A stretch of DNA of 26,760 nucleotides from a virus. Location of the stretch: the IMG/VR virus record IMGVR_UViG_3300046331_000136, positions 1-26,760 of that record; one strand, given 5' to 3'. The translations under genes and the position numbers were made by a program. Below the pieces are notes generated by a model. That model saw only the letters and a list, made by a program, of their open reading frames with translations, was not told the origin of the DNA and ran no database searches. Position 1 is the stretch's first letter; every line of letters starts with the position of its first letter. Of the stretch, positions 1 to 11,900 are shown one piece after another.

Positions 1-132
1 ATATATTCAGAGTATGACTGTGGTTATATGCGTGGTTATACCACTCATGTTACCTATGAAAACGAGAGTTTAATTTGTATCTGGAGACAGAACTCTTGGC
101 CTTTTAAAACTATTTCAGGAGTAAAAGTATGA
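1..132 (+). CDS. C-terminal end of an unrecognised protein, cut by the window edge
   Basis: Frame 1 is open from the first base to the TGA at 130-132 and gives 43 codons, ending in ...FKTISGVKV. The start lies outside the window. The stop overlaps the next start as ATGA (129-132), the same coupling used throughout this operon, which supports real coding. The fragment is rich in Tyr, Thr and Trp and has two Cys, with no motif I recognise. It is probably a small early phage protein. Confidence 0.55.
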   Translation: MYSEYDCGYMRGYTTHVTYENESLICIWRQNSWPFKTISGVKV

Positions 133-365
133 TTAACGAACACGACATTAATGACCATGAGTGTGCTCTGTATGAGCTATCAATGGGTGCTAGGTTTAAA
201 TTAGCAGACGATGAGATTAAGGTGCCCATAGCTTCTAATGAGTTTAAAATAAATGACATTTTTAAATTTGAAACTATTGATGGTATGTATAGTCGTTGTT
301 TTGACAGCGCTGGTAAATTACACCATTTTGCAGCTTGGACTAAAGTGAGGGTATTACATGAGTAG
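129..365 (+). CDS. Hypothetical protein, 78 aa, early operon
   Basis: A 78-aa acidic-to-neutral protein with no signal peptide, membrane segment or known motif. Its start is overlapped by the upstream stop (ATGA at 129-132), and CAGGAG at 117-122 provides a Shine-Dalgarno about 6 bases upstream. Its end overlaps the next start by 8 bases. The middle part (residues about 18-60) alternates charged and hydrophobic residues and suggests a small beta-rich domain, but I do not recognise a family. The operon position suggests an accessory early function. Confidence 0.7.
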   Translation: MINEHDINDHECALYELSMGARFKLADDEIKVPIASNEFKINDIFKFETIDGMYSRCFDSAGKLHHFAAWTKVRVLHE

Positions 366-627
366 ATCACATTACAATTGCCCAGTTTGTGGGGAAACGA
401 CAATGAGTGGTATGAATTGTTGTGACCACGAGGAAAACAATGGAGAGTTACATTTTGTTTTATTAGAACAGGAAATAGTTAACCTAAGGAATGACATTGC
501 CATTCTAGAGTTAGAAAGTGTTTTAATGAGGGCCCGGAACGAAAGGTTACAAGCTGAAAATGAGGTACTTATGCGTAAGTTAGCTGGTCCTTGTAGTTCT
601 CATGCTTTTGAAGAGGGGGATAAGTGA
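358..627 (+). CDS. Small Cys-rich protein with coiled coil, 89 aa
   Basis: The N-terminus carries CPVCG (residues 8-12) followed by NCC and DH (about residues 20-24), a likely metal-binding knuckle. Residues about 30-75 form a Leu/Glu-rich heptad-like stretch (LLEQEIVNLRNDIAILELES and onward) predicted to be a coiled coil. This resembles the many small zinc-finger-plus-coiled-coil proteins of phage early regions, whose roles are mostly unknown. The ATG lies inside the 3' end of the previous gene and the stop overlaps the next start as GTGA. Oligomeric nucleic-acid or protein binding is only an inference. Confidence 0.7.
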   Translation: MSRSHYNCPVCGETTMSGMNCCDHEENNGELHFVLLEQEIVNLRNDIAILELESVLMRARNERLQAENEVLMRKLAGPCSSHAFEEGDK

Positions 628-1007
628 AAGATTTAGTTGAACGGTTACGCAAACGAGCAGAGATACGTAGACATATACCTAGTCGCAAGTCGGTTCAGAA
701 CAATGAGCCTGACCGTATTGCTGATCTGTTAGAAGAAGCTGCCGCTGCACTAGAATGTAAACATGAAGATAAGCTAGGAACTTTAGAAGAAGCTATTGAG
801 TTTGATAAGAAAAGAAATTATCAATACACCGCACCAATAGAACTAGAACCTGCTGATAAAGTTGATGATGCTTTGTATAGTGCATGGCGACAATATACAG
901 GTTGGGGAATACCGAGTAAGAAGGGTGAAGAAGAATTTACAGCACAGTACCATGCTTTTCAAGCTGGGTGGAAATACGCAATACTAAAGAAAGCGAGTGA
1001 GAAATGA
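624..1007 (+). CDS. Hypothetical protein, 127 aa, Ead/Ea22-like N-terminus
   Basis: The GTG start at 624-626 overlaps the preceding stop (GTGA) and lies just after the purine-rich Shine-Dalgarno GAGGGGGA (612-619). The N-terminus (VERLRKRAEIRR, then DRIADLLEEAAAALE) has the helical pattern of Ead/Ea22-type accessory proteins seen in many phages: a short helix, a loop, then an Ala/Glu-rich helix. The C-terminal part has WRQYTGWGIPSK and FQAGWKYAI, typical of phage proteins of unknown role. There are no catalytic residues or membrane segments. Function unknown; the family link is weak pattern recognition only. Confidence 0.65.
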   Translation: MKDLVERLRKRAEIRRHIPSRKSVQNNEPDRIADLLEEAAAALECKHEDKLGTLEEAIEFDKKRNYQYTAPIELEPADKVDDALYSAWRQYTGWGIPSKKGEEEFTAQYHAFQAGWKYAILKKASEK

Positions 1008-1204
1008 TTGAAGGACTAACAGCTAGGCAGGTGATTGAGATGATAGCTAATGAGTACTATGAGTTATCACACGATAAGATTAAGCTACAGAGAGATGACC
1101 ATGTACGATGGTGTAAGTCATGGCTTGAGTTAAACCCTGTTATTGAAACACCGTTACAACAGGTTAGAAGATGGTGGGAACAACAGAAGGAACTAAACAA
1201 ATGA
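1004..1204 (+). CDS. Hypothetical protein, 66 aa
   Basis: A small protein rich in Trp and charged residues (VRWCKSWLELNP, VRRWWEQQKELNK), probably helical. Its ATG overlaps the previous stop as ATGA (1004-1007) and its own stop overlaps the next start the same way (1201-1204). It is therefore most likely translated by coupling within the operon. No family recognised. Confidence 0.6.
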   Translation: MIEGLTARQVIEMIANEYYELSHDKIKLQRDDHVRWCKSWLELNPVIETPLQQVRRWWEQQKELNK

Positions 1205-1485
1205 AAGCGCCTACAATGTTTAAAATTAAACCAAAGTTTGAAGTAAATATTTACCCATATATTGAAGATAACACTTTTAATATGGATGTTGTATTAAATG
1301 GTCAGGAAGATAAAACAGTATCTGTAGAGCTAACTAAGTTATTTAAAGAGTACTTAGAATTTAGAACAGTAGTTGGTCAAAAAAGAGTAAGCCCTAATCA
1401 TCGCCAAGAAGTTATTGAGATGGTGGCTACATTGCGTTATGTTGCAAAAGAAATGGAGAATGAAGTTGACGATCTTATTAATTGA
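1201..1485 (+). CDS. Hypothetical protein, 94 aa
   Basis: I place the start at ATG 1201, within the ATGA overlap, rather than at the upstream in-frame codon at 1171, because every neighbouring gene uses this coupling. The N-terminal half (FEVNIYPYIEDNTFNMDVVL) looks like antiparallel beta-strands. The C-terminal half (residues about 40-94) is helical and acidic, ending in DDLIN. The 3' end overlaps the start of the exonuclease by about 26 bases. No known motif. Its position just before the exonuclease suggests, without proof, a DNA-metabolism accessory role. Confidence 0.65.
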   Translation: MKAPTMFKIKPKFEVNIYPYIEDNTFNMDVVLNGQEDKTVSVELTKLFKEYLEFRTVVGQKRVSPNHRQEVIEMVATLRYVAKEMENEVDDLIN

Positions 1486-2197
1486 TGCTGACATATTAGC
1501 ATACCAATCTACATCATCAGCAGAGTCTGAAGTAGAGTGGGATGTAGATACCTGGACTGTAGACACAGACTTAAATAAAGCAAAGGATCACTTTAATTAT
1601 TTATTAAACGAATATAAGAAACTAACAGGTGTTGACAAATATAAACTGTGTTTTTCTCATAAAAATATATTTAGAAAAGAGATATACCCTCAGTACAAAG
1701 CCAATCGCAAGGGGCGAAAACCTGTAGGATACTCTGCTATTAAAGAGTGGGCCTTAGAGAACTATGAAAGTTTTATTAAAGACCAACTAGAAGGGGACGA
1801 TTGTCTTGGCATTTTGGCCACTAAGTATACAAATAAAACAATTATTGTATCTATGGATAAAGACATGAAAACGATTCCTGGGAAGTTCTTTAGGATATCT
1901 CCCTCAGGAAACCATGAGATGCTAGAGATCACTAAAGAGGAAGCTAACTACTACTTCTTGACTCAAGCGTTAACTGGAGACTCATCTGATGGATACCCAG
2001 GCTGTCCTGGGATTGGTCCTAAGAAAGCTGAAGAGCTCCTTAAGAAGCATGGGGCTGTATGGAAGACTGTAGAAGACGCCTTCCTTAAAGCTGGATTGAC
2101 AGCTGAAGATGCCCTAGTACAGGGAAGGCTTGCTAAGATTCTACAGGCTGATAATTGGGATTTTGAAAATGAAAAGGTTAAACTATGGATGCCATGA
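1460..2197 (+). CDS. 5'-3' exonuclease (FEN / T7 gp6-like)
   Basis: A phage flap-endonuclease/5'-3' exonuclease, the class that removes RNA primers and degrades host DNA during replication. Visible motifs in order: LLIDADILAY at the N-terminus (first metal-binding Asp), YPQYKANRKG (helical arch), EGDDCLG (acidic cluster), SMDKDMKTIPG (second metal cluster) and TGDSSDGYPGCPGIGPKKA (H2TH/helix-hairpin-helix DNA binding). At about 245 aa it is close to the usual length for small phage members. An upstream in-frame ATG at 1415 would add 15 non-conserved residues. ATG 1460 sits very close to its GGAG (1455-1458), so TTG 1466 with a spacing of 7 is a possible alternative start. The 3' end overlaps the next gene by 13 bases. 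Confidence 0.93.
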   Translation: MKLTILLIDADILAYQSTSSAESEVEWDVDTWTVDTDLNKAKDHFNYLLNEYKKLTGVDKYKLCFSHKNIFRKEIYPQYKANRKGRKPVGYSAIKEWALENYESFIKDQLEGDDCLGILATKYTNKTIIVSMDKDMKTIPGKFFRISPSGNHEMLEITKEEANYYFLTQALTGDSSDGYPGCPGIGPKKAEELLKKHGAVWKTVEDAFLKAGLTAEDALVQGRLAKILQADNWDFENEKVKLWMP

Positions 2198-2586
2198 AAA
2201 ACTGTAAAAACTGTTATTGGAACTCACACTATGATGTACACCAATCTATATTCCCTGCTATGTGCTCTAGTTGTAGCGCTTACTCTAGTCCTGGTAACCC
2301 TTACCCAAGGTGGACTGTAAATGCTGAGGTGGTCTCTGAGGAAACCAAAGCAGCCATTGAAGAACTAGAAGATATGGTTAATCAGCCCCCACATTACACA
2401 GGGCACCCATCAGGAGTTGAGTGTATTCAGATTACTGAGCACATGAACTTTTGCCTGGGAAACGCCATGAAGTACATTTGGCGGGCAAATGATAAGCATA
2501 TCAGTCCCTTAGAGGACCTTAAGAAGGCTAAATGGTACATTGAACGGGAGATAGAGCGAATTGAGAGCACCTGTGAAAACATTTAA
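2185..2586 (+). CDS. DUF3310 protein with N-terminal zinc-ribbon-like segment
   Basis: The C-terminal half (residues about 65-130) is a clear DUF3310 domain (SaV-like): a VNQPPHYTGHPSGVECIQ core, then NAMKYIWRANDKH and the DLKKAKWYIEREIERI helix. This domain is widespread in phage nucleotide/replication modules and its biochemical role is not settled. The N-terminal 45 residues add CKNC and, after about 20 residues, CSSC, spaced like a zinc ribbon. Start ATG 2185 has AAAAGG (2172-2177) 7 bases upstream. It sits between the exonuclease and the metallopeptidase with short overlaps, so it is co-translated with DNA-metabolism genes. Confidence 0.9.
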   Translation: MDAMKNCKNCYWNSHYDVHQSIFPAMCSSCSAYSSPGNPYPRWTVNAEVVSEETKAAIEELEDMVNQPPHYTGHPSGVECIQITEHMNFCLGNAMKYIWRANDKHISPLEDLKKAKWYIEREIERIESTCENI

Positions 2587-2866
2587 AATACCTAAGCAGT
2601 TTGATCTTGCTGGTGCCACCTTTAAAGTTTTTATTAAAGAAGGCCTTAGCAAAAGCGGTGCCCATGGTCAAACCCATTATGATGCTGCTGAAGTTTGGTT
2701 AGATAAGGACCTTAAGCCTGAAGATTTAAAGGCCATCACCTTCTACCATGAGCTTTTCCATGCCATGTTTAATACATTGGGCAAGGACGATCTGAAGAGT
2801 GATGAAGGTCTCGTGGATGCCATGGGTAATCTCATGTGGCAGTTCCATAAATCAGCTAAATATTAA
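2573..2866 (+). CDS. Minimal HExxH zinc metallopeptidase, 97 aa
   Basis: A very small protein with the zincin motif HELFH (residues 59-63), embedded in TFYHELFHAMFNTLG, and a downstream acidic SDEGLVDAM (Glu78 is a candidate third zinc ligand). This layout is common in phage proteins annotated as metallopeptidase-like or IrrE/ImmA-like. The substrate cannot be inferred. I chose GTG 2573 because GAGAG (2563-2567) precedes it by 5 bases; TTG 2561 is the in-frame alternative and adds 4 residues. It overlaps the end of the DUF3310 gene. There is no signal peptide, so it should act in the cytoplasm. Confidence 0.75.
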   Translation: MKTFKIPKQFDLAGATFKVFIKEGLSKSGAHGQTHYDAAEVWLDKDLKPEDLKAITFYHELFHAMFNTLGKDDLKSDEGLVDAMGNLMWQFHKSAKY

Positions 2867-2867
2867 G

Positions 2868-2999
2868 ATGAAAGTTAGTTTCTTTAAAACTCATTGTTTT
2901 AGGGGTGGTTTCTTTCATTGGGGCGAGTTTCGCTTTAATGGGGGAGACTGTTACACTAGCTATAGGATTGGCCCAATACTTATAAGGATAAGAAAATGA
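2868..2999 (+). CDS. Hypothetical small protein, 43 aa
   Basis: ATG 2868 follows the previous stop by one base and the ORF ends by overlapping the next start (2996). The product is rich in Phe, Gly and Arg (RGGFFHWGEFRFNGGD), with two Cys. A longer version starting at 2799 would run inside the metallopeptidase gene and is unlikely. The Shine-Dalgarno is weak, so translation would rely on coupling. Function unknown. Confidence 0.45.
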   Translation: MKVSFFKTHCFRGGFFHWGEFRFNGGDCYTSYRIGPILIRIRK

Positions 3000-3184
3000 A
3001 AGAATACACAAACCAACAATTATTAGATATTTGTGATAATATGCCTGAAGATCAAAAGAAATGTGGAGTAACCACTTTAGAAGACGGTTCAGGTACTGTC
3101 GACTTAGCGGATTTTATAGTAAACTATGGACGTGCACTATTAACGGAGTTTAATAAAGAAGATGAAACCAAGGTATCTAGTTAG
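2996..3184 (+). CDS. Hypothetical acidic protein, 62 aa
   Basis: The start ATG 2996 is preceded by AAGGATAAG, a good Shine-Dalgarno. The protein is acidic and Asp/Glu/Asn-rich (CDNMPEDQKKCGVTTLEDGS) with no membrane segment or known motif. Its last 23 bases overlap the following 53-aa ORF. The place in the operon suggests an accessory early role; nothing more can be said. Confidence 0.6.
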   Translation: MKEYTNQQLLDICDNMPEDQKKCGVTTLEDGSGTVDLADFIVNYGRALLTEFNKEDETKVSS

Positions 3185-3323
3185 TGATGAAATAGGCCCT
3201 CTAAGGATATTTGACTCTAAAGAGGAGGCACAGGCCTTTATGGATTCAGAAATGACCATGAAGACTGTACCTGGCAAACCAAAACCAGATCCATTTAAAA
3301 TTGTTGGTGACGCCCCATTTTAA
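3162..3323 (+). CDS. Hypothetical small protein, 53 aa
   Basis: ATG 3162 opens a frame of 53 codons to TAA 3321-3323, beginning MKPRYLVSDEIGPLRIFDSK and ending DPFKIVGDAPF. The start lies inside the end of the preceding gene, as for its neighbours. The pattern (short strand, SKEEAQAFMDS helix, Pro-rich tail) is what a small genuine phage protein looks like. It fills the space up to the integrase promoter, part of which lies within its last codons. No family recognised. Confidence 0.5.
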   Translation: MKPRYLVSDEIGPLRIFDSKEEAQAFMDSEMTMKTVPGKPKPDPFKIVGDAPF

Positions 3324-3332
3324 TGTTATACT
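3304..3332 (+). promoter_or_regulatory. Candidate sigma70 promoter for the integrase
   Basis: TTGGTG at 3304-3309 and TATACT at 3327-3332 are separated by exactly 17 bases, and TG at 3324-3325 gives an extended -10. Initiation would fall near 3339, leaving a leader of about 18 bases that contains GGAGAGAG just before ATG 3357. The -10 is strong and the -35 matches only its TTG half. It overlaps the end of the 53-aa gene and would let the integrase be expressed apart from the early operon. Confidence 0.5.
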
Positions 3333-3356
3333 AGATTTACTTTATAGGAGAGAGAT

Positions 3357-4172
3357 ATGAAAAACACACAACCTAAGACATACAGAGAACTCTATAGAAG
3401 AGCTATTCCACTATTGTGGACAACTCCAAATATGCTTAAGTTGTCTTCAGCTTATCTTATGGATGCTGAGGATATCATTGGTAATCCTAACCTTGAGGAT
3501 ATCACCACAGACACTATAGACCTTTATAAGTCTAAGGTTTCTGTGGGTCTCTCTCCAGCTACTGTAAATCGCAAACTATCATCTATGCACAAGCTTCTTA
3601 AGTATGCCCATGATCGTGATTGGTTATCTAAGATGCCTATGTTCTCTTGGAATAAAGAAGACAACGAAAGAGTACGCTGGTTGTCTAAGGAAGAGGAACT
3701 ACAGCTTCTATCGTTATTGCCTAAGGATGTCTCAGTATTCTGTGAGTTGTTATTACAAACAGGCATGAGACGTAGTGAATTACTTAATTTAACAGGTGAT
3801 AACGTAGACGGTAACTATATTAGATTATGGAAAACTAAGAACGGTAAACCTAGATCAGTACCAATGAGCCAAAGAGCTCAGGTATTGATTAAAGATTTCT
3901 TAGGTGACAAGCCTGATGTAGTTAGGATTCATAAAGAATGGCTTAAAGCTAAGAAGACTATGGGCCTAGAAAAAGACAAGAACTTTGTATTGCACATCCT
4001 AAGACACACCACAGCTACCCGTATGTTAGACACTACTGGTAACATTGCTGTAGTCCAAAAGATGCTTGGTCATGCCAAGATAACAACTACTATGAGATAT
4101 GCTCATATAGCTGATGATAAACTGTTGGAGGCCGTACAAGCCACCTCAGAGAAACACAACTGCCTCGCTTAA
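3357..4172 (+). CDS. int: Tyrosine recombinase / phage integrase
   Basis: A 271-aa site-specific recombinase that would insert and excise the phage genome. The N-terminal part (about residues 10-100) is a SAM-like core-binding domain with LSPATVNRKLSSMHKLLKYA. The catalytic domain shows all expected residues: Arg138 in TGMRRSELLNL, Lys161 in the TKNGKPRSVP hairpin, His213 and Arg216 in HILRHT, His239 in MLGHA and the nucleophile Tyr248 in MRYAH. It is short and probably lacks a separate arm-binding domain. ATG 3357 has GGAGAGAG directly upstream, and a dedicated promoter and terminator flank it. It is the last gene of the + strand. No excisionase or repressor is recognised in this window. Confidence 0.93.
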   Translation: MKNTQPKTYRELYRRAIPLLWTTPNMLKLSSAYLMDAEDIIGNPNLEDITTDTIDLYKSKVSVGLSPATVNRKLSSMHKLLKYAHDRDWLSKMPMFSWNKEDNERVRWLSKEEELQLLSLLPKDVSVFCELLLQTGMRRSELLNLTGDNVDGNYIRLWKTKNGKPRSVPMSQRAQVLIKDFLGDKPDVVRIHKEWLKAKKTMGLEKDKNFVLHILRHTTATRMLDTTGNIAVVQKMLGHAKITTTMRYAHIADDKLLEAVQATSEKHNCLA

Positions 4173-4237: not shown

Positions 4238-4275
4238 AAAAAAAAGGCAGCCCCTAGAGTTACCTAGAGGCTGCC
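4238..4275 (-). terminator. Rho-independent terminator ending the late transcript
   Basis: On the - strand a 12-bp stem (arms 4264-4275 and 4246-4257, one G-U pair) with a 6-base loop is followed by eight U (A at 4238-4245). It lies just after the stop of the DUF6496 gene and closes the leftward structural/lysis operon. With the integrase terminator it insulates the two convergent transcripts. Confidence 0.9.
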
Positions 4276-4282
4276 TGTTGTA

Positions 4283-4455: not shown

Positions 4456-4923
4456 TTAAACTATTAATCCTGGTGTATATACAGTTTTGCCTTTTTCTTT
4501 TACTGCTGTTAAGCACTGACATTTTAAGTCTTGTGGGTCATAAGAAACATGGACCCATCCTGATTCAGGAACACCTTGGGTATAAAACTCTAAGATAACC
4601 TGGGTAAATTCAAAATTTCCAGCTATGTACTTAGCTAAGTCTCCATTAGCAACCCCTGAAATCTCAATATCAGCCGCTTGCCCTTTACAGTGGTCGCTAG
4701 TCTTAGAGCCACCTACTGAAGCGTTAACTTCAGGTGATCTATAACCAGAATTAACTTTAACTGCCTTACCATAATGGTCACGAACAGGTTGTAGTATGTT
4801 CTCACATAGTGTTTTTAGATTAGATGTAACTGTTTCGTTAGGTGTGTTATCTAAGCCCTTGCGAACAGCTGTTTCACTTACTGTTAACTCTTTTAAACTA
4901 AAACTAGCTGTTAACTGTGTCAT
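4456..4923 (-). CDS. M15-family peptidoglycan endopeptidase (endolysin)
   Basis: A 155-aa zinc D-Ala-D-Ala/L-Ala-D-Glu-type peptidase of the peptidase_M15_3 (VanY-like) family, expected to cut peptide bonds in peptidoglycan at lysis. The zinc ligands are visible: His78 and Asp85 in SDHCKGQAADIEI, and His125 in GWVHVS. NSGYRSPEVNASVGGSKTS is the typical substrate-side loop. There is no signal peptide, so release needs the holin encoded nearby. The start overlaps the previous stop as ATGA. About 30 C-terminal residues after the catalytic core contain two Cys (KCQC) of unknown use. Confidence 0.9.
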   Translation of the reverse strand: MTQLTASFSLKELTVSETAVRKGLDNTPNETVTSNLKTLCENILQPVRDHYGKAVKVNSGYRSPEVNASVGGSKTSDHCKGQAADIEISGVANGDLAKYIAGNFEFTQVILEFYTQGVPESGWVHVSYDPQDLKCQCLTAVKEKGKTVYTPGLIV

Positions 4924-5276
4924 TCTTCAACTCTTCCTGCTCTCAAAGGTTTAATCTTCTTAGCTACACCTAGCTTCTCTTCTAAGATAGCAATGTGTAA
5001 TCTGTTCTCAGCAATAGCATCTCTATTCTTTTGAATCTCGATACCTAAGTCTTGTCTTAGTTTCTCACGAGCTAACTCAGCACCTGTATTAGATGCTTGT
5101 TTGTTATCGCTAGTAACTACCAAGGAAACTTTGCTGTTAAGAATCGTTACATCATGTTGAATAGCACTTAATGCTGATACAAGATACCCTGTACATCCAA
5201 TGAGTAATGGAAGAAGTGCAAATAGCATCTTCTCAATAAATGCTCCCTTAGCTGATTCTTTAGTTTCTTCTGCCAT
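4920..5276 (-). CDS. Membrane-anchored coiled-coil protein (inner-membrane spanin-like or holin accessory)
   Basis: A 118-aa protein with one N-terminal transmembrane helix (residues about 17-42, MLFALLPLLIGCTGYLVSAL) followed by a long charged helix (residues about 45-105, with ELAREKLRQDLGIEIQKNRD) ending in a basic tail. Short N-terminus, one membrane segment and a periplasmic coiled coil is the shape of i-spanins such as Rz. No outer-membrane lipoprotein partner (Rz1-like lipobox) is visible, embedded or adjacent. It lies between the holin and the endopeptidase, with AAAGG upstream. It could equally be a second holin-like factor. Confidence 0.6.
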   Translation of the reverse strand: MAEETKESAKGAFIEKMLFALLPLLIGCTGYLVSALSAIQHDVTILNSKVSLVVTSDNKQASNTGAELAREKLRQDLGIEIQKNRDAIAENRLHIAILEEKLGVAKKIKPLRAGRVEE

Positions 5277-5277
5277 G

Positions 5278-5676
5278 TTACTTACCTTTCTTTATATCAA
5301 TAATCTTTTCTAGTGTCCTGCCTCCGAAGTAAAAAGAGACGATGAGCATAATCATCTGACCTAGCAACTCTACGTAAACCTGATTCACATTAATACCAAA
5401 AGCAGAAACAGAAGCAAATATAAAGTAAGATACTAACAGAGCAACAAGGGTCATCGGTCTTACGTTCTTACTTAACCATGAATCACTAGACATATCTGCT
5501 TCGTGTCTCTTAGTTAGTTCTACTTGCTCAGCAGTATCAGCCTGTATTTGAGCTAGTTCACCATTTTGTTGCATCTCTAATAGTTTTAATTTAGCTTGTT
5601 CTGCTTGTGCAGGATCTGGAAATACTTTATCTAATATTTTAGATCCTATCCCAAGCACTGCTTCTAGTGGAAACAT
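5278..5676 (-). CDS. Holin, GTA_holin_3TM-like
   Basis: A 132-aa membrane protein with an amphipathic N-terminus (FPLEAVLGIGSKILDKVFPD), an Ala/Glu/Gln-rich helix (residues about 22-60) and two clear membrane segments (about 78-97 and 104-122). SWLSKNVRPMT precedes the first segment and GGRTLEKI follows the second. This architecture and the RTxEK ending match the 3TM holins of gene transfer agents and many podoviruses. It would form the membrane lesion that releases the endopeptidase. AAGGAC lies 8 bases before the ATG. The 36 bases upstream are AT-rich and hold no gene. Confidence 0.8.
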   Translation of the reverse strand: MFPLEAVLGIGSKILDKVFPDPAQAEQAKLKLLEMQQNGELAQIQADTAEQVELTKRHEADMSSDSWLSKNVRPMTLVALLVSYFIFASVSAFGINVNQVYVELLGQMIMLIVSFYFGGRTLEKIIDIKKGK

Positions 5677-5712
5677 TAGTAGTGTCCTTATTAATAATAT
5701 ATAAATTAATTT

Positions 5713-5922
5713 TTAGTTGAGGTGCTTAAATATCCAGTCTTTGAAGACTGTTAAAGCAACCCCTAAACATGAAACTAAGAAAGCGACACCACCAAGGAAT
5801 CCTTTGTATCTGGTCATTTCATCTTTAATCTCGTGCATTATTTTCAGCATTTCTGTATGGTTATCTTCTAGAGCTGTTACCTTAGTCTCTAGAACAGCCG
5901 TGCGTTCTACGTGATCTGTCAT
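5713..5922 (-). CDS. XhlA/hemolysin-like small membrane protein
   Basis: A 69-aa protein with an N-terminal coiled-coil helix (residues about 5-38: AVLETKVTALEDNHTEMLKI) and one C-terminal membrane segment (about 43-60, FLGGVAFLVSCLGVALTVF) followed by a short basic end. This is the layout of XhlA-type lysis accessory proteins, which assist the holin at the inner membrane. It opens the lysis cassette. AAAGGAAC lies about 11 bases before ATG. The family call rests on topology, not on catalytic motifs. Confidence 0.65.
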   Translation of the reverse strand: MTDHVERTAVLETKVTALEDNHTEMLKIMHEIKDEMTRYKGFLGGVAFLVSCLGVALTVFKDWIFKHLN

Positions 5923-5936
5923 TCTAAACTGTTCCT

Positions 5937-6452
5937 TTAAATAAGTGGCTCTACATATTCAACAATCAGCCCAATAGGCTGGTTGCTCCAAGCAAAGATT
6001 CTGTCTTTGTGGGCAAAATCGTTTAGAAGCTGTTTTTTATCTTCTGGTATAAAACCATAACCTTGAGAAAATTTATCCCATTGTTTAGTGTTATCAGAAA
6101 AGGTATACTCACTAAATGACAAACCATCGCCATTAGTTTTGTAATAGGTTATTGGTAGGTTGTTTTCAAAATAAACATAATCGTATTTAACACCACCAAC
6201 TACACAGTCTTTTTCAAAAAGCTCTGTTCTATTATCTTGATAAACACGAACTAAAAATACACCAGATACAAAAACATGACACAAGACCTGTTTTGTTGTT
6301 GCGTTGTAAATAGAGTTTAAATAAAAACACCCAGGTTTAATAGAATCAGCTACAGCTTTTTTATCAGGAAGTAAAGAACTATTTGGATACTCCCCTGTAA
6401 GGCCTAAAGCCAATACCGAGTTTGTTTCTAACTGCTCAACAGATAGTGTCAT
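5937..6452 (-). CDS. Hypothetical protein, 171 aa, accessory cassette
   Basis: A soluble 171-aa protein without recognised motif, signal peptide or membrane helix. The central part (residues about 40-125) is rich in aromatic and beta-branched residues (CHVFVSGVFLVRVYQDNR, YDYVYFENNLPITYYKTN), suggesting a beta-sheet or beta-barrel fold. The C-terminus has WSNQPIGLIVEYVEPL. It starts 2 bases after the oxygenase gene stop, with GGGG upstream of ATG, so it is co-transcribed with the oxygenase. It could be a partner or substrate of that enzyme, but nothing in the sequence proves this. Confidence 0.6.
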   Translation of the reverse strand: MTLSVEQLETNSVLALGLTGEYPNSSLLPDKKAVADSIKPGCFYLNSIYNATTKQVLCHVFVSGVFLVRVYQDNRTELFEKDCVVGGVKYDYVYFENNLPITYYKTNGDGLSFSEYTFSDNTKQWDKFSQGYGFIPEDKKQLLNDFAHKDRIFAWSNQPIGLIVEYVEPLI

Positions 6453-6453
6453 T

Positions 6454-7080
6454 TTAACCCCTTAAAGAATTGTGTACGTTTATGCCCATGACAATACGCT
6501 CTTTATCGCTAGGGTTTGGTTGTGTTTTGTGATACAACCACCCTGGAAATAACACAAGTTTTCCTGGGGCTGGTGACTCTACGTGGTCAAAAAAGTATCT
6601 ACCCTGTTTAGACTCAGCTGAGTTATAGATGGGAAGTCGGCCCCTAATGACCTCAAGTGGGTCAACCATAGCAATACAACCCATATCTGGAGTTGCATTG
6701 ACATAAAAAGAACCAGCTATTTCAAAAGGGTTATGATTATGGTGAATAATATTTCCACCTTTTGGTGTTAAGTTAGCCCACATATGGTCTATAGTTGGCT
6801 GTGACCCACTATAGAACCCTAGCTCTTTCCAATACTCTTTTAAGTGGTGTTCGATAAACTCGACAATCTTTTGATTCTTTAGTCGTTTATGTAGATCACG
6901 AACCTCGTGAGGCAAAGTACCTTCTAAGCTGTATGAGTTATTAAATAAACGATGCTTGCTAAAAGCTTCTCTATCTGTATCAAAATAAGCACGTATCTCA
7001 GCCTCTAAGTCTTCTTGAATTAGTTCATAATCAGGAAACTGGGCCGTGTATATTTTTATAGGAAATATTTCTTTAATCAT
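6454..7080 (-). CDS. Putative 2OG-Fe(II) oxygenase (TIGR02466-like)
   Basis: A 208-aa protein with the C-terminal double-stranded beta-helix pattern of 2-oxoglutarate/Fe(II) oxygenases of the TIGR02466 type, known from many marine and freshwater phages. Residues 113-116 (HHNH) are the candidate first metal ligands, followed by EIAGSFYVNATPDMG. GKLVLFPGWLYHKTQPN supplies the distal His184, and KERIVMGINV supplies Arg195 for 2-oxoglutarate. These enzymes hydroxylate proteins, nucleic acids or small molecules; the substrate here is unknown. Its ATG overlaps the upstream cupin gene stop (ATGA). The location between host-recognition and lysis genes suggests late expression. Confidence 0.8.
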   Translation of the reverse strand: MIKEIFPIKIYTAQFPDYELIQEDLEAEIRAYFDTDREAFSKHRLFNNSYSLEGTLPHEVRDLHKRLKNQKIVEFIEHHLKEYWKELGFYSGSQPTIDHMWANLTPKGGNIIHHNHNPFEIAGSFYVNATPDMGCIAMVDPLEVIRGRLPIYNSAESKQGRYFFDHVESPAPGKLVLFPGWLYHKTQPNPSDKERIVMGINVHNSLRG

Positions 7081-7538
7081 GATATATCAACCAAAGCTGT
7101 ATGGGAATCACCACAGGTTTCCCCTTGCCATCTTATGGTGACACTGGTTGGCTTAAGACCTTCGTCCCACTTTTCAAGACTCAAGAAAGCGCCCCCACGA
7201 TCACCAACATGAAGAGCATGGGTATCTCCGCTATTAATAGTAGGGCCAAGTATTCCAAATATATCAACATTAGATGGTATCAACGTTGTTACATTATTTT
7301 GCTTTGTACCAATATCTCCACCTAGCAACATGATGATGTTATTAACACCTGGGTGGCTATGGTCTGGAGAGCCTGTGTTAGGCCTTACTAAATAAAGTTC
7401 AGCCTGGTACTGCCCTTCTCTATAAAGCACATAGCTGTAGCTAATCTCAGTTACATAAATCGGGTCTTCTTTTGGTGGGCGCAACGGCATACCGTTAGCT
7501 TTATACCAAGCTGCAAACTCTTCAACTGTTTTCCACAT
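7077..7538 (-). CDS. Cupin-like protein, paralogue 1 (153 aa)
   Basis: A cupin-fold candidate that is clearly related to the next gene upstream (7522-8067). Both share a WY..N.MP N-terminus, an R.GQ.Q.ELYLV strand, an HxHP motif and a final W..G.KP....RW.G.T block. Here the motif is DHSHPGVNN (His60, His62), but the usual cupin Glu is replaced by Asn66. A second motif GDTHALHVGDRGG provides His107/His110. Metal binding is therefore plausible but may be altered. It overlaps its paralogue by 17 bases and the oxygenase by 4. The role could be catalytic (dioxygenase, isomerase) or only ligand binding. Confidence 0.65.
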   Translation of the reverse strand: MWKTVEEFAAWYKANGMPLRPPKEDPIYVTEISYSYVLYREGQYQAELYLVRPNTGSPDHSHPGVNNIIMLLGGDIGTKQNNVTTLIPSNVDIFGILGPTINSGDTHALHVGDRGGAFLSLEKWDEGLKPTSVTIRWQGETCGDSHTALVDIS

Positions 7539-8067
7539 TTTTTAACTCTTTTAAATAACCCATTGTTTTAGTAATATCAGCATACCCATCAATAACTAAA
7601 GCATCTGGGTGAAAACGCCTGATTAAGTTTTCTTGCATAGGTCCCACTGTTTTGCCCCGCCACTGAGCAGCAACGGTGTGCGGTTTTTCCCCACTAACCC
7701 AATGCTGTACTGCAATTAAAGGAAAACCAAGATTTTCGCCTTCTACCCTAAAACCAGCACCGTGGAATTCTCCCTTGGTTAAGGGGTTAGAGGCTACTGC
7801 TGTTTTTTCATAAAGACGTACTTTAATAACTTCAACATTAGGGTGTTCATGAATAGGTACTTTTGGTTCTGGATATACGAGGTATAATTCAACTTGAAAC
7901 TGTCCATGCCTGAATAAACAAACAGCAGTTGCATCATCAGATAAAAAGACTTCTGATTCGTTTGAAAAAGTAATTGGCATGTTGTTTTCCATATACCAAT
8001 CACAAAAAGACTCAACATTATCCCAAGTTTCTGGAATTTCTAAATGTTTAAGGTTGTATGTTTTCAT
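7522..8067 (-). CDS. Cupin-like protein, paralogue 2 (181 aa)
   Basis: Carries a good first cupin motif: IHEHPNVEV with His73, His75 and Glu79, spaced HxHxxxE. The second motif candidate is KGEFHGAGFRVEG with His102. N-terminal FCDWYMENNMPI and C-terminal QHWVSGEKPHTVAAQWRG align with the downstream paralogue, so the pair arose by duplication or joint acquisition. This copy has about 25 extra C-terminal residues (GYADITKTMGYLKEL). Its start lies inside the 3' end of the 87-aa gene and has only a weak Shine-Dalgarno. A metal-dependent small-molecule role is inferred. An alternative is a non-enzymatic beta-barrel protein. Confidence 0.68.
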   Translation of the reverse strand: MKTYNLKHLEIPETWDNVESFCDWYMENNMPITFSNESEVFLSDDATAVCLFRHGQFQVELYLVYPEPKVPIHEHPNVEVIKVRLYEKTAVASNPLTKGEFHGAGFRVEGENLGFPLIAVQHWVSGEKPHTVAAQWRGKTVGPMQENLIRRFHPDALVIDGYADITKTMGYLKELKNVENS

Positions 8068-8311
8068 TTATTTTACCGACATATTCAGCCAACAACTCTT
8101 CAGGCAGTTCTGCCCCTTGATCTGAGTTAGTGTTTTCATATTCACGCCCAGTTTCATCAACATAAACAACTTTGTAATGAAACCCTGAAGTTTGTGTGTA
8201 ATATAAATCAAGAGCGTTTTTTATAATAGCAGAAGCAACTTCTTCTTTGGAATCGAAGTAAACATATTGCCCTGTTAAACAATTAAAAACAATGTGCTTT
8301 TCTGTAATCAT
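8048..8311 (-). CDS. Hypothetical protein, 87 aa, following the adhesin
   Basis: Directly coupled to the adhesin gene by an ATGA overlap (8308-8311) and overlapping the next gene by 20 bases. The sequence (HIVFNCLTGQYVYFDSKEEV, then YKVVYVDETGREYEN) suggests a small alpha/beta protein; the C-terminus is acidic. Genes in this place, just after a fibre tip, are often fibre assembly factors, but no known chaperone motif is visible. It may alternatively belong to the cupin/oxygenase cassette. Confidence 0.6.
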   Translation of the reverse strand: MITEKHIVFNCLTGQYVYFDSKEEVASAIIKNALDLYYTQTSGFHYKVVYVDETGREYENTNSDQGAELPEELLAEYVGKINENIQP

Positions 8312-9192
8312 CCTAATCCACCGTATCTATTTCCTGTTGCTGACCAAGTAATGTAGCCGTTTCCACTAACAGCTAAACCGCCACCACCACCTGCACCTCC
8401 AGCCGTTGGAACAGTACCAGCCATGCCAGACGCACCAGCAGCACCAGAGGAGCCCCAACCACCACCAGAGCCTCCATTACCACCATAATAAGTCCCTGGA
8501 GTATTCACCAAACCAGCACCACCACCACCTGGACCGCCAGATGTTCCAGCACCTCCTGCATTGTATCCAGCACCTCCGCTTGAGTTTTGTAGGCCTGTTC
8601 GTCCACCGCCTCCGCCACCGCCTCGGTAATAAGCGTATGTGCCCAGTGCGCCAGTACCACCACCGCCGCCTCCTCCACCACCGCCACCGATGTTGGAATT
8701 GTTTTGGATAGTAACATAAGTTCCGACAGCTAAACCAGTTCCACCACCGCCACCAGCAACGCCTAAACCAGCTGTAGGGGATAAACCACCATCACCACCC
8801 ATACCAATAACGTTTCCGTTATTAATAAAAGTCACACCACCAGGCCAGGAACCATCAATAGTTAAAGCAGCTTGCCCTGTTGATGCTGAATAAATCCAAA
8901 CACCACCTGCCAGTGTAGCCTGAACAGTAGATGAGCCGTTCCACCCAGCGTTTAATGCTAGAGTTCTAAGGTTTGCTCTATCTTGATTAGATGAAATGGT
9001 AAAGGAGAACAACGGTGAAGTAGCTCTTTTACCATAGAAGTCACTAATAGATAAAGAGCCACTAGAGAAGGTACCAGAGCCACCTGCATCGGTATACCAT
9101 GTAGTTCCACGGTATGAGTTTAAATTGTTTCCTCTGCCAAACTCAGCATTGATTTGCTGTATTGACAAAGAACCTGAAGCAGGTAGCGCCAT
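8308..9192 (-). CDS. Glycine-rich tail-fibre tip / adhesin
   Basis: A 294-aa protein. The N-terminus (SLSIQQINAEFGRGNNLNSY, ...TFSSGSLSISDFYGKRA) is the conserved attachment segment found in many phage glycine-rich tail proteins. A middle domain (residues about 58-150, with FTISSNQDRANLRTLALNAG) is followed by Gly-rich runs from about residue 130 to 280, including NNSNI followed by 11 Gly, GGAGTSGGPGGGG and GGSGGG. Such runs form polyglycine-II sandwich tips in phage S16 gp38-type adhesins, with variable loops between runs that bind the receptor. It follows the S74 fibre gene by only 2 bases, which fits a fibre-plus-tip pair. The receptor is unknown. Confidence 0.82.
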   Translation of the reverse strand: MALPASGSLSIQQINAEFGRGNNLNSYRGTTWYTDAGGSGTFSSGSLSISDFYGKRATSPLFSFTISSNQDRANLRTLALNAGWNGSSTVQATLAGGVWIYSASTGQAALTIDGSWPGGVTFINNGNVIGMGGDGGLSPTAGLGVAGGGGGTGLAVGTYVTIQNNSNIGGGGGGGGGGGTGALGTYAYYRGGGGGGGRTGLQNSSGGAGYNAGGAGTSGGPGGGGAGLVNTPGTYYGGNGGSGGGWGSSGAAGASGMAGTVPTAGGAGGGGGLAVSGNGYITWSATGNRYGGLG

Positions 9193-9194
9193 AG

Positions 9195-11900
9195 TTAATT
9201 ACCTTTCTTTATTTCTTCTATTTCTTTTCTTAATAAGGTTACTTCTTCAGCTAGTTTAACAGCTGCTACAAGTGCAGCGTTACCATAAGCTAACGATAGA
9301 ACACCATCAGACCCTGTTAAGACTGTCTCAGATAAAATCTTTTGCATATCTTGAGCAGATACACCAGCTTGTCTTTCGCCTGTATCTTTACGAGTATAAG
9401 TACCACACTTAATTTTACTTAGGTCTTCTAAGAAAGTCTTTGGTAGTGTAGACCAGTTTTCTTTTAATCTCTCATCAGAATAAGCTGTTACGTTACCACC
9501 AGCTGTAAAATTGTTAGCAGTGTCTGTAGTCCATCTAGAGCCACCTACGGAATCATAACAGCCAATAGTTCCACCAGCTTGACCGTAGAAATAAGCACTT
9601 CTACCTGTCATATTCCAGCCATACGCTTTTTCGCCTGTTGTAGCATTAGCGAAAATATTGCCGTTCATGGTGAGACCAGCCATAGTATAACTGTTACCTG
9701 AATTTAAGGCATTGGCTGTAGAGGCTGTAGTGGCTGTGGTTGCTGAGTTAGCTACATCTGCTGTTCCTGAAGATTGAGCATATGTTACAGACTGAGCACC
9801 AATGTTTGCTGTGGTTATAGCATCGGTAATACCATAGCCACTGATTGTAGTTGGTTTAGAAGTAACACCAGACCAGGTTACTGTAGCTGCCGAACCCGAA
9901 ACAGAAATTGCCCAGGTACCTGTAGCATTAGATCCAGAAGTATTTGCCTTAGAGTCTAAAGCTGTCTGTAGGCCTGTAACCGCAGATATAGGGTGCTGAT
10001 CTGAAGCTGATCTATCAGTTAAAGAGTTATGACTAGATGCACTAAAAGATAGAACACTAGATTGTTGTCCTTCAATTAAACGAACACCTGCAATCTGTAC
10101 GCCAGCATTGTTAGTGTATGTGCCTACCTTTAAAACAACCTGATACATTGTGACAAACTCTGGTAAAGATAAACCATAGTCATCAAAGATTTCAGCATAA
10201 GCCTCATCAATTTGGTTATAAGAACCACGGCCCATTACAAGCTTAACTGGGTAGTTCTTATCGTTTGTAGCAACAACCCAATATGAAATATATTTATTTA
10301 ATGTTGAGTCGGCTAAACTGCCTGAGGCCCCTGAAATTGAGTTGTAGGCTGCATATACAGAACCCTTAACCCAAGGGTCTGTAGAAGGTGTTGTTTCTAC
10401 GTATCCTGTACCGTTTAAATAAATAACAGGCAATGAAGCAATAGAATCTAATACTTGATTATAGTTACCTGTAGGTGTAGCTGAGTGTGTAATAGAGTGT
10501 TCTACGTCTTCATCAGCAATATTAATAGGTGTTACAAAACCTACAGATACTGTGTTGCTGTTTAGTGTATAACTAATAGCTCCACCAGATCTCCAGATAG
10601 CTCCTATGTCTCTATGTTGAGAATAGTGCCATTGTGTGTCTCTTTGTACTGAATGTCGTTCATCACCAACAATGATAGACTTACTATTAACAGCGTCCCA
10701 GTATACATATGAAACCAGAATAGATGATCTAATGTTTGGTGTAGAGCTGCCCTCAACTAAAACGCCAGCTACTGGGTCATAAGTAATATAACGACCACCA
10801 GTAGTATTTGTAATCTGGATAGTTTTAGCAGTATCAATAGTATACTCAAGTCCTCTGTAGTAGACTAAAGTTGCTGTAGTTGGTGTTAATGTTAATGTCC
10901 TTGTACTATTATCAAAAGAAATAGTAGAAGTTGTTCTATTTAAGAACCCAGACATATCAGAAGTTAGCTCACCAACTGTGTTAATGATTCCATCAATATC
11001 AACAGAACTGGCGGCAGCCGCTGCATCTTGAGCATATTTTTTAGCTGAGTACTCTAAACCATCTACAGTACCTGTTGTTTTGTTAGCCCAGTCTTGTGCT
11101 AGACTAGCAGATACCACAGCTTCGGCAGCCTTAGTAGAAGCTGTAGAGGCACTTGTAGCAGCCGCTGTTTGACTGGCTGCTGATAAGTTAGCATTATATT
11201 TAGATGAGTAGTCAGAGCCTAATACAGGACCTGAAACTTTAATTGCCCAATCTTGAGCCAAACTAGCAGCAGCCTCAGAATTAACCTCAGCTGTCTCAGC
11301 CGCTTGCTCATGACTAGCAGCTAAATTAGCAGAGGCTAAAGAAGCACTAGCAGAGGCAGAAGAGTTGTTTGCCTGAGTAGTAGCAATACCAGCCTGAGTG
11401 GTAGATATTCCAGCTTGAGTAGTAGCAATGCCAGCCTGAGTTGATGCTGTAGAAGCACTAGAAGCTGCGGCATTTTGAGATACTAATGCAGCAGAAGCAG
11501 CAGCCTCAGCATTGGTTTCAGCTGTCTCAGCGTTAGTCTTTGCTGTCTCAGCAAGAGCCTGGGCAGCCTGAGCAGCTACTTTAGCAGCCTCAGCTTGTAC
11601 CACGCCAGCATTAACTGTAACAATAGCAGCCTGAGCAGCAGCAAGGGCCGCTTCAGCAGCTTGTTGGGCCGCAACAGCAGCATTTAGTGTTGCTTGTGCT
11701 TGAGCCAAAAGAGAAGATACACTATTCTCAGAGGCCTTAGAGTTATTAGCAGAAGCTAAAGCATTAGCAGCAGAAATAGCAGCAGCGTTCTGGGATTCTT
11801 GGGCAGCCGCTACCTTTGCTTCTAAGTCAGCAATTAGCTCGTTAAGTGTGCTTTGTTCAGGAGCAGGAGAACTGCCATAAAAGAAACTGGTAGTAGCCAT
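9195..11900 (-). CDS. Tail fibre with C-terminal S74 intramolecular chaperone
   Basis: A 901-aa trimeric-fibre protein. The first 300 residues are Ala/Gln/Ser-rich coiled coil with heptad-length repeats (TQAGIAT) and two copies of SLAQDWA..K..G.V.G..YS.K, a repeat known from phage fibres. Residues about 310-500 form a beta domain with [10 protein letters not shown] and [25 protein letters not shown] and GYGITDA are further fibre repeats. The last 94 residues are a peptidase S74 chaperone: SDERLKENW gives the Ser808/Lys813 dyad used for self-cleavage after folding, ending in a coiled coil. AAGGA lies just before the ATG. It sits between the adaptor and the adhesin tip. Confidence 0.93.
11371..11443 (-). 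repeat. 21-bp tandem repeat in the fibre coiled coil
   Basis: Three full 21-bp units (11371-11391, 11392-11412, 11413-11433) and a partial fourth, each beginning GCYTGAGT on the + strand and encoding the heptad TTQAGIA/S. Copies differ at a few positions. Changes in copy number would alter the length of the fibre shaft without changing frame. Confidence 0.75.

Follow-up and report, generated by a model that had tools for sequence, protein, structure and literature searches.

Probable late genes for two cupin-like proteins and a predicted 2-oxoglutarate-dependent oxygenase behind a phage receptor-binding tip gene: a candidate tailoring cassette

The viral contig record analysed here, whose 26,760 bases constitute the window, carries between the gene of a putative receptor-binding tip and the lysis genes a cassette for a predicted 2OG-Fe(II) oxygenase (F208), two homologous cupin-like proteins (H181 and G153) and two further proteins (I87 and E171). 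Related gene sets recur at this place in freshwater phages. The five genes do not form a constant set; G and F behave as a pair, acquired or lost together behind H on repeated occasions. We consider it about an even chance that the cassette belongs to a modular tailoring pathway expressed late, as judged from gene content and conservation. The proteins would accordingly be enzymes acting late in infection on a shared substrate, with a possible link to the tip.

Results

Organisation of the late gene region

The genes for virion structure and packaging (portal, terminase, major head protein) occupy the right part of the window on the minus strand. The features relevant to the cassette are:

9195-11900, minus strand: fibre, upstream of the GP38-like tip
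8308-9192, minus strand: tip (J294), glycine-rich, GP38-like, putatively receptor-binding (PF05268, E=1.9e-7; phrog_2056, tail fibre/host specificity, E=8.7e-4)
8048-8311, minus strand: I87, small protein tied to the tip and cupin H (alignment; H present in every matching contig)
7522-8067, minus strand: H181, cupin-like metal-site protein with H73, H75, E79 and H102 (alignment, ligand table, AlphaFold2 model)
7077-7538, minus strand: G153, cupin-like paralogue of H with H60, H62 and H107, N66 replacing the usual Glu (alignment, tree)
6454-7080, minus strand: F208, predicted TIGR02466/PF13759 2OG-Fe(II) oxygenase with H114-N115-H116, H184 and R195 (profiles, alignment)
5937-6452, minus strand: E171, optional protein (alignment; 6 viral loci)
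4456-5922, minus strand: lysis genes past the cassette, for a 69-aa protein, holin, a 118-aa protein and M15 endolysin (profile matches)
5278-5676, minus strand: holin (PF11351, E=1.6e-12)
4456-4923, minus strand: M15 endolysin (profile match)
4245-4276, minus strand: strong terminator-like stem-loop 3' of the lysis genes, where the late transcript probably ends

The five minus-strand reading frames which an earlier note on this DNA had placed at 5937-8311, between tip and lysis genes, are all present. Their tight coupling, claimed there for the whole set, holds from the tip through F, as the genes overlap by 4 nt (tip/I87, ATGA), 20 nt (I87/H), 17 nt (H/G) and 4 nt (G/F, ATGA), but not for E171, which follows F after a 1 nt gap and has its own AAGGGG-like ribosome-binding-like site. 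Because of the gene overlaps and the terminator-like stem past the lysis genes, a single late transcript probably spans the tip, the cassette and the lysis genes. The left-arm genes (129-4172) lie on the plus strand and converge on this late operon.

The oxygenase

F208 scores 84.9 bits against TIGR02466 (cut-off 62.5) and 61.2 bits against PF13759 (cut-off 27) and is on this basis assigned to the TIGR02466/PF13759 family of 2OG-Fe(II) oxygenases. The HHNH-type motif, distal His and Arg recognised earlier are present, and H114-N115-H116, H184 and R195 are invariant in the alignment of 10 orthologues. From knowledge of the superfamily we take these residues to be the HxH motif, the distal His ligand and the 2OG-binding Arg, respectively. 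Aquatic phages commonly encode TIGR02466 oxygenases, for which, to our knowledge, no substrate is established. The closest relatives of F208 in isolate phages share only 25–28% identity with it, and the closest outside the tip phages, in T4-like contigs (L142-L148), share 59–61%. All 17 loci in which an F orthologue with 59% identity or more is flanked by sequence on both sides also have an HG cupin, i.e. a member of the family of H and G, nearby.

A cupin-like family with an invariant metal site

H181 and G153 share 28% identity (BLASTP E=3e-22), a homology absent from the earlier note, and are, judged from their sequences, ancient paralogues: in a tree of 77 divergent family members (<88% identity) the H and G clades separate with 100/99 support. 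The three metal-site His are invariant in 77/77 of these proteins, the fourth ligand is Glu or Asp in 71/77, and E60 and W123 (H numbering) are likewise invariant. The HxH motifs already noticed in both proteins are confirmed, and to each a third His, previously overlooked, has to be added. The metal motif of H181 is complete, consisting of HxH(x)3-4E and the His of the second motif, whereas G153 keeps the three His and has Asn at the position of the Glu that most G relatives retain.

No Pfam, NCBIfam or PHROGs model recognises H181 or G153 of the window. With the Cupin_2 profile a relative in L032 reaches the cut-off (27.2 bits) and 5 of 15 G members match at E values up to 1 (best 3.3e-6), while H and G of the window stay below the curated cupin cut-offs. 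An assignment of H181 as PCO/ADO thiol dioxygenase was rejected (14.5 bits against a cut-off of 27), as was DMSP lyase (PF16867), which gave a best E value of 0.036 among the G members and no match for G153 of the window. The AlphaFold2 model of H181 (pLDDT 87.9, pTM 0.83) finds cupin-type structures as top Foldseek matches, mostly with probabilities of 0.9–1.0 but with query TM scores below 0.35; the match to phosphomannose isomerase reaches a TM score of 0.43–0.50 if normalised to the length of the isomerase, and that to the unnamed BFVD entry D6PF24 reaches 0.61. The cupin fold proposed earlier has support from the motif, the one member at the Cupin_2 cut-off and the type of the fold matches, but not from superposition, which is poor. 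Mainly because of the motif, the family-level Cupin_2 match and the set of fold matches, we regard H and G as probable cupins of an unmodelled family. That a single run of late genes encodes three barrel proteins, putatively metal-dependent, as the earlier note had it, is supported. For I87, two hairpins and two helices are predicted (pLDDT 86.5), and the model has no fold match in the PDB.

Relatives of H and G were recovered from IMG/VR contigs; none was found among 50,697 phage records, and tblastn against isolate phages detected no relative of H, G, the cupin family cupin42 or the SAM methyltransferase described below. Sequence searches of the PDB gave no meaningful relative of H or G, and no relative of known function was found for either. 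The only cellular match is a single bacterial locus of Quisquiliibacterium, which is prophage-like and lies amid phage structural genes; all other matches are to uncultivated viral contigs. No further genome matched when the H profile was run on 300 genomes of the order of Quisquiliibacterium and the G profile on 399 of its phylum. The strain, Quisquiliibacterium transsilvanicum DSM 29781, is the one cultured carrier that turned up, with H and another cupin behind the tip. This prophage-like locus also encodes a fibre with long collagen-like GPQ repeats (L033:4762-6354), next to the tip, the two cupins and a DUF4376 protein. The HG cupins form a family of cupin-like proteins restricted to viruses; its metal ligands are invariant, and current family libraries miss it.

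Gene neighbourhoods in phages of the window's type

Several independent queries supplied the loci whose neighbourhoods were mapped. Loci with identical cupins were merged into 63 groups, which are contig fragments and not phylogenetically independent. The window's type comprises 27 groups, 26 with I87 and L077, which has tip-H-G without I87. Both G and F are present in eight of the 27, G only in one, F only in none and neither in 18 (Fisher 4e-6, ancestry ignored). Three of the eight groups with G followed by F have a 4Fe-4S protein between the two. The 4Fe-4S protein has 270 residues and partial similarity to reductive dehalogenases (L004:6966-7787, L020:6459-7271, L028:6456-7268). The single G-only group carries ThyX (PF02511) in place of F behind G (L010:7000-7689). 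Outside the 27 groups, L189 has the order tip-small protein-cupin42-H-G with no F in the stretch covered, and in L085 a PF13759 oxygenase more distant from F occurs without G. When the presence of G-F is mapped on the tree of H, the best tree needs four changes, two of which are forced by well-supported branches, so that G-F behaves as a two-gene unit.

I87 was found in 26 groups, always together with H, and all 11 of its viral scan matches fall in H-carrying contigs. In 25 of the 26 the tip is no more than 1.5 kb away, the remaining contig starts at I87, and I87-H stands directly behind the tip in every I87 group whose contig reaches that far. Most of the 18 groups without G-F have a SAM methyltransferase behind H, whose profile matches are weak, to small-molecule methyltransferases and far below cut-offs. 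E171, found at 6 viral loci, never shares a group with this methyltransferase, and the window has E171 and lacks the methyltransferase; E171 is thus optional and alternates with the methyltransferase at the same spot in sister phages. The earlier view of the five genes as one system is not supported in that form, as I87-H occurs without G-F in 18 groups and E171 is replaceable. It had named independent occurrence of the genes in related phages as the argument against a common system; H and I87 are indeed partly independent of G-F, but F is not independent of G.

Tips are 293–303 aa long in 8/9 phages with G-F and 357–389 aa in 12/14 without G-F, the exceptions being L028, L009 and L053. The association of short tips with G-F (8/9 versus 2/14, Fisher 7e-4, phages not phylogenetically independent) is suggestive and not separable from ancestry. 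A second fibre-like gene set and a second tip-cluster protein lie past the cassette in L006, L007, L008 and L020, and some phages of this kind may have two tips.

Selection on the cassette

The dN values of F are 0.04–0.08 versus six of eight sister phages and 0.21 versus the other two, and those of G are 0.04–0.06 versus four and 0.22–0.32 versus the other four. Values versus the sister phages are 0.20–0.47 for H, 0.19–0.36 for the tip and 0.29–0.82 for I87. Synonymous sites are saturated in all these comparisons, so that recent horizontal transfer was rejected as the cause of the high G-F identity, which is attributed to purifying selection. F, and partly G, therefore deal with a substrate or partner that does not change; H and I87, in contrast, drift at roughly the rate of the tip. 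The protein-level constraint at saturated synonymous sites and the arrangement kept by the orthologues also exclude chance as the source of the observed gene run.

The same families in other arrangements

Adjacent HG pairs occur in 32 of the 63 groups and in both orders. T4-like contigs (L142-L148) have SDR-G-G-oxygenase operons, and the island of L143 additionally contains radical SAM, QueC-like and Asp/Asn-hydroxylase-like genes. L052 and L229 show the order MTase-SDR-G-H-oxygenase (MTase, the SAM methyltransferase), L227 has MTase-oxygenase with G divergent, and distant MTase relatives directly adjoin TIGR02466-like oxygenases in L225, L226, L227, L228 and L231. In L031, on a contig shared with L058, the MTase upstream of SDR-G-H-F is split into two ORFs (4889-5439), while that of L052 is intact; a cytochrome P450 (PF00067, E=1e-16; L031:7646-8779) lies in a phage island beside cupins and oxygenases. 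In humic-lake phages, G-G pairs stand in tandem elsewhere in the genome, for the most part with neither oxygenase nor MTase nearby. Several of the tandem G-G pairs in L088-L113 are near an apparent (by eye) DNA cytosine methyltransferase and replication genes.

Discussion

The recurrence of HG cupins, TIGR02466-like oxygenase, MTase and SDR in other orders, in T4-like biosynthetic islands, supports a shared tailoring pathway over chance neighbours. In such a pathway, F might hydroxylate or otherwise oxidise a substrate using Fe(II), O2 and 2-oxoglutarate, and the two HG cupins, made side by side, might carry out metal-dependent steps on the same compound by isomerisation, oxygenation or lyase chemistry. 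Further steps would be added by the SAM methyltransferase in sister phages and by the SDR in T4-like phages. The substrate would most likely be a small conserved compound or group and not a fast-evolving protein surface; the much stronger conservation of F relative to the tip speaks for one that is constant and probably small. Since H and I87 keep to the tip, they may connect the product with the receptor-binding apparatus. Because of the contrast in dN, a small constant substrate is favoured for G-F and a possible tip link is kept for H-I87. The single late pathway proposed earlier remains reasonable as far as the strict co-occurrence of G and F and the recurring family combinations of distant phages are concerned, but not as a unity of five genes. 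Several observations count against a pathway, namely that no relative of H or G has a known function or, by sequence, a solved structure, Asn for the usual Glu in G153 of the window, the poor superposition of H, L189 without F and the G-G pairs that mostly lack such partners.

A direct post-translational modification of the tip or fibre, whose residues would be hydroxylated or oxidised by the oxygenase and the cupins so as to alter stability or binding, appears rather unlikely. It is in line with the fixed position of I87-H behind the tip, with the association of tip length with G-F, with cupin42 also following tips (L182, L189 and L190; its weak PHROG matches are to families of short tail fibres and tail fibre adhesins), with the island of L143 abutting a gene that is fibre-like by eye and with SPASM radical SAM and Asp/Asn-hydroxylase-like proteins in T4-like islands. 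However, F hardly changes while the tips diverge, HG pairs are also found without a nearby tip, and in the alignment of tips from phages with and without G-F no residue column cleanly separates the two, only length: none of the residues fixed in tips of G-F phages is missing from all others.

A late modification of a host envelope glycan or lipid, which might block re-adsorption of progeny or superinfection, is likewise unlikely. The relative of F208 in P-SSM2 (27% identity) lies amid nucleotide-sugar epimerases and glycosyltransferases, and a GT2-like gene follows two genes after H in L003; decoration of capsular polysaccharide was proposed, besides secondary metabolite synthesis, for cyanophage cupin-like and 2OG enzymes (PMC7824862). 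Against this reading, a scan of ten cassette and lysis genes of the window revealed neither an epimerase nor a glycosyltransferase, and most sister cassettes lack one as well.

We regard it as improbable that a hot spot between the tip and the lysis genes has collected unrelated cargo whose functions are separate. ThyX, the 4Fe-4S protein, a glycosyltransferase, MTase or E171 do occupy this region in different phages, as expected for a cargo hot spot and to the disadvantage of a pathway, and I87-H occurs without G-F. Yet F is never without G in phages of the window's type, and the same families are reassembled in different orders in distant phages. Very improbably, finally, the cupins are structural, as virion tip or chaperone domains whose barrel serves binding and not catalysis: the place of H and I87 behind the tip, their tip-like divergence and the weak tail-fibre matches of cupin42 would fit, but the metal ligands are invariant in 77/77 and HG pairs also occur away from tail genes and next to oxygenases, P450 and SDR.

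The most far-reaching reading would be a phage-restricted module of paired cupins, TIGR02466 oxygenase and SAM methyltransferase that makes a small group and installs it on the tip. We consider this speculative and unlikely; if true, host recognition would depend on a virus-encoded chemical modification of the receptor-binding tip. As a minimal cassette tying a TIGR02466 oxygenase to a specific cupin partner beside a tip, G-F and its neighbours offer a short gene list for reconstitution.

Comparison with known systems

Among the systems tested, the whole module fits no named one, and the literature collection searched contained no precedent for phage cupins beside tail genes or for hydroxylated fibres. 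The fibre followed by a GP38-like glycine-rich tip corresponds to the gp37-gp38 fibre/adhesin pair of T-even phages, but here the tip is followed by the extra genes I87-cupin-(G-F). The cupin metalloenzymes DMSP lyase DddQ, cysteine/cysteamine dioxygenases and phosphomannose isomerase share the HxH(x)3E...H pattern, and cupin-type matches were found by Foldseek; they differ, however, in having no significant sequence relation, the PCO_ADO and DMSP_lyase matches being not significant or below cut-off. The TIGR02466/PF13759 oxygenases of T4-like cyanophages and pelagiphages share with F the family score, HxH, distal His and Arg, but are distant in sequence and have no cupin annotated beside them in the three isolate-phage regions examined. 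2OG oxygenases are widespread in cyanophages, with roles that are only speculative (PMC3037559).

Similar in kind are the biosynthetic clusters of jumbo phages and cyanophages, in which 2OG oxygenases, cupin-like DSBH proteins and methyltransferases are likewise clustered and, for cyanophages, were predicted to decorate capsular or surface polysaccharides or to produce a secondary metabolite (PMC7824862). The window differs from these in its minimal cassette of 2–4 genes, its small tip-lysis operon and a cupin family not found in isolate phages. Phage-borne tailoring clusters are already known as a kind; the paired HG cupins would be a family not described before. By analogy, the cassette may work like a short oxidative tailoring pathway and resembles a minimal version of the cyanophage tailoring clusters equipped with a distinct cupin-like family.
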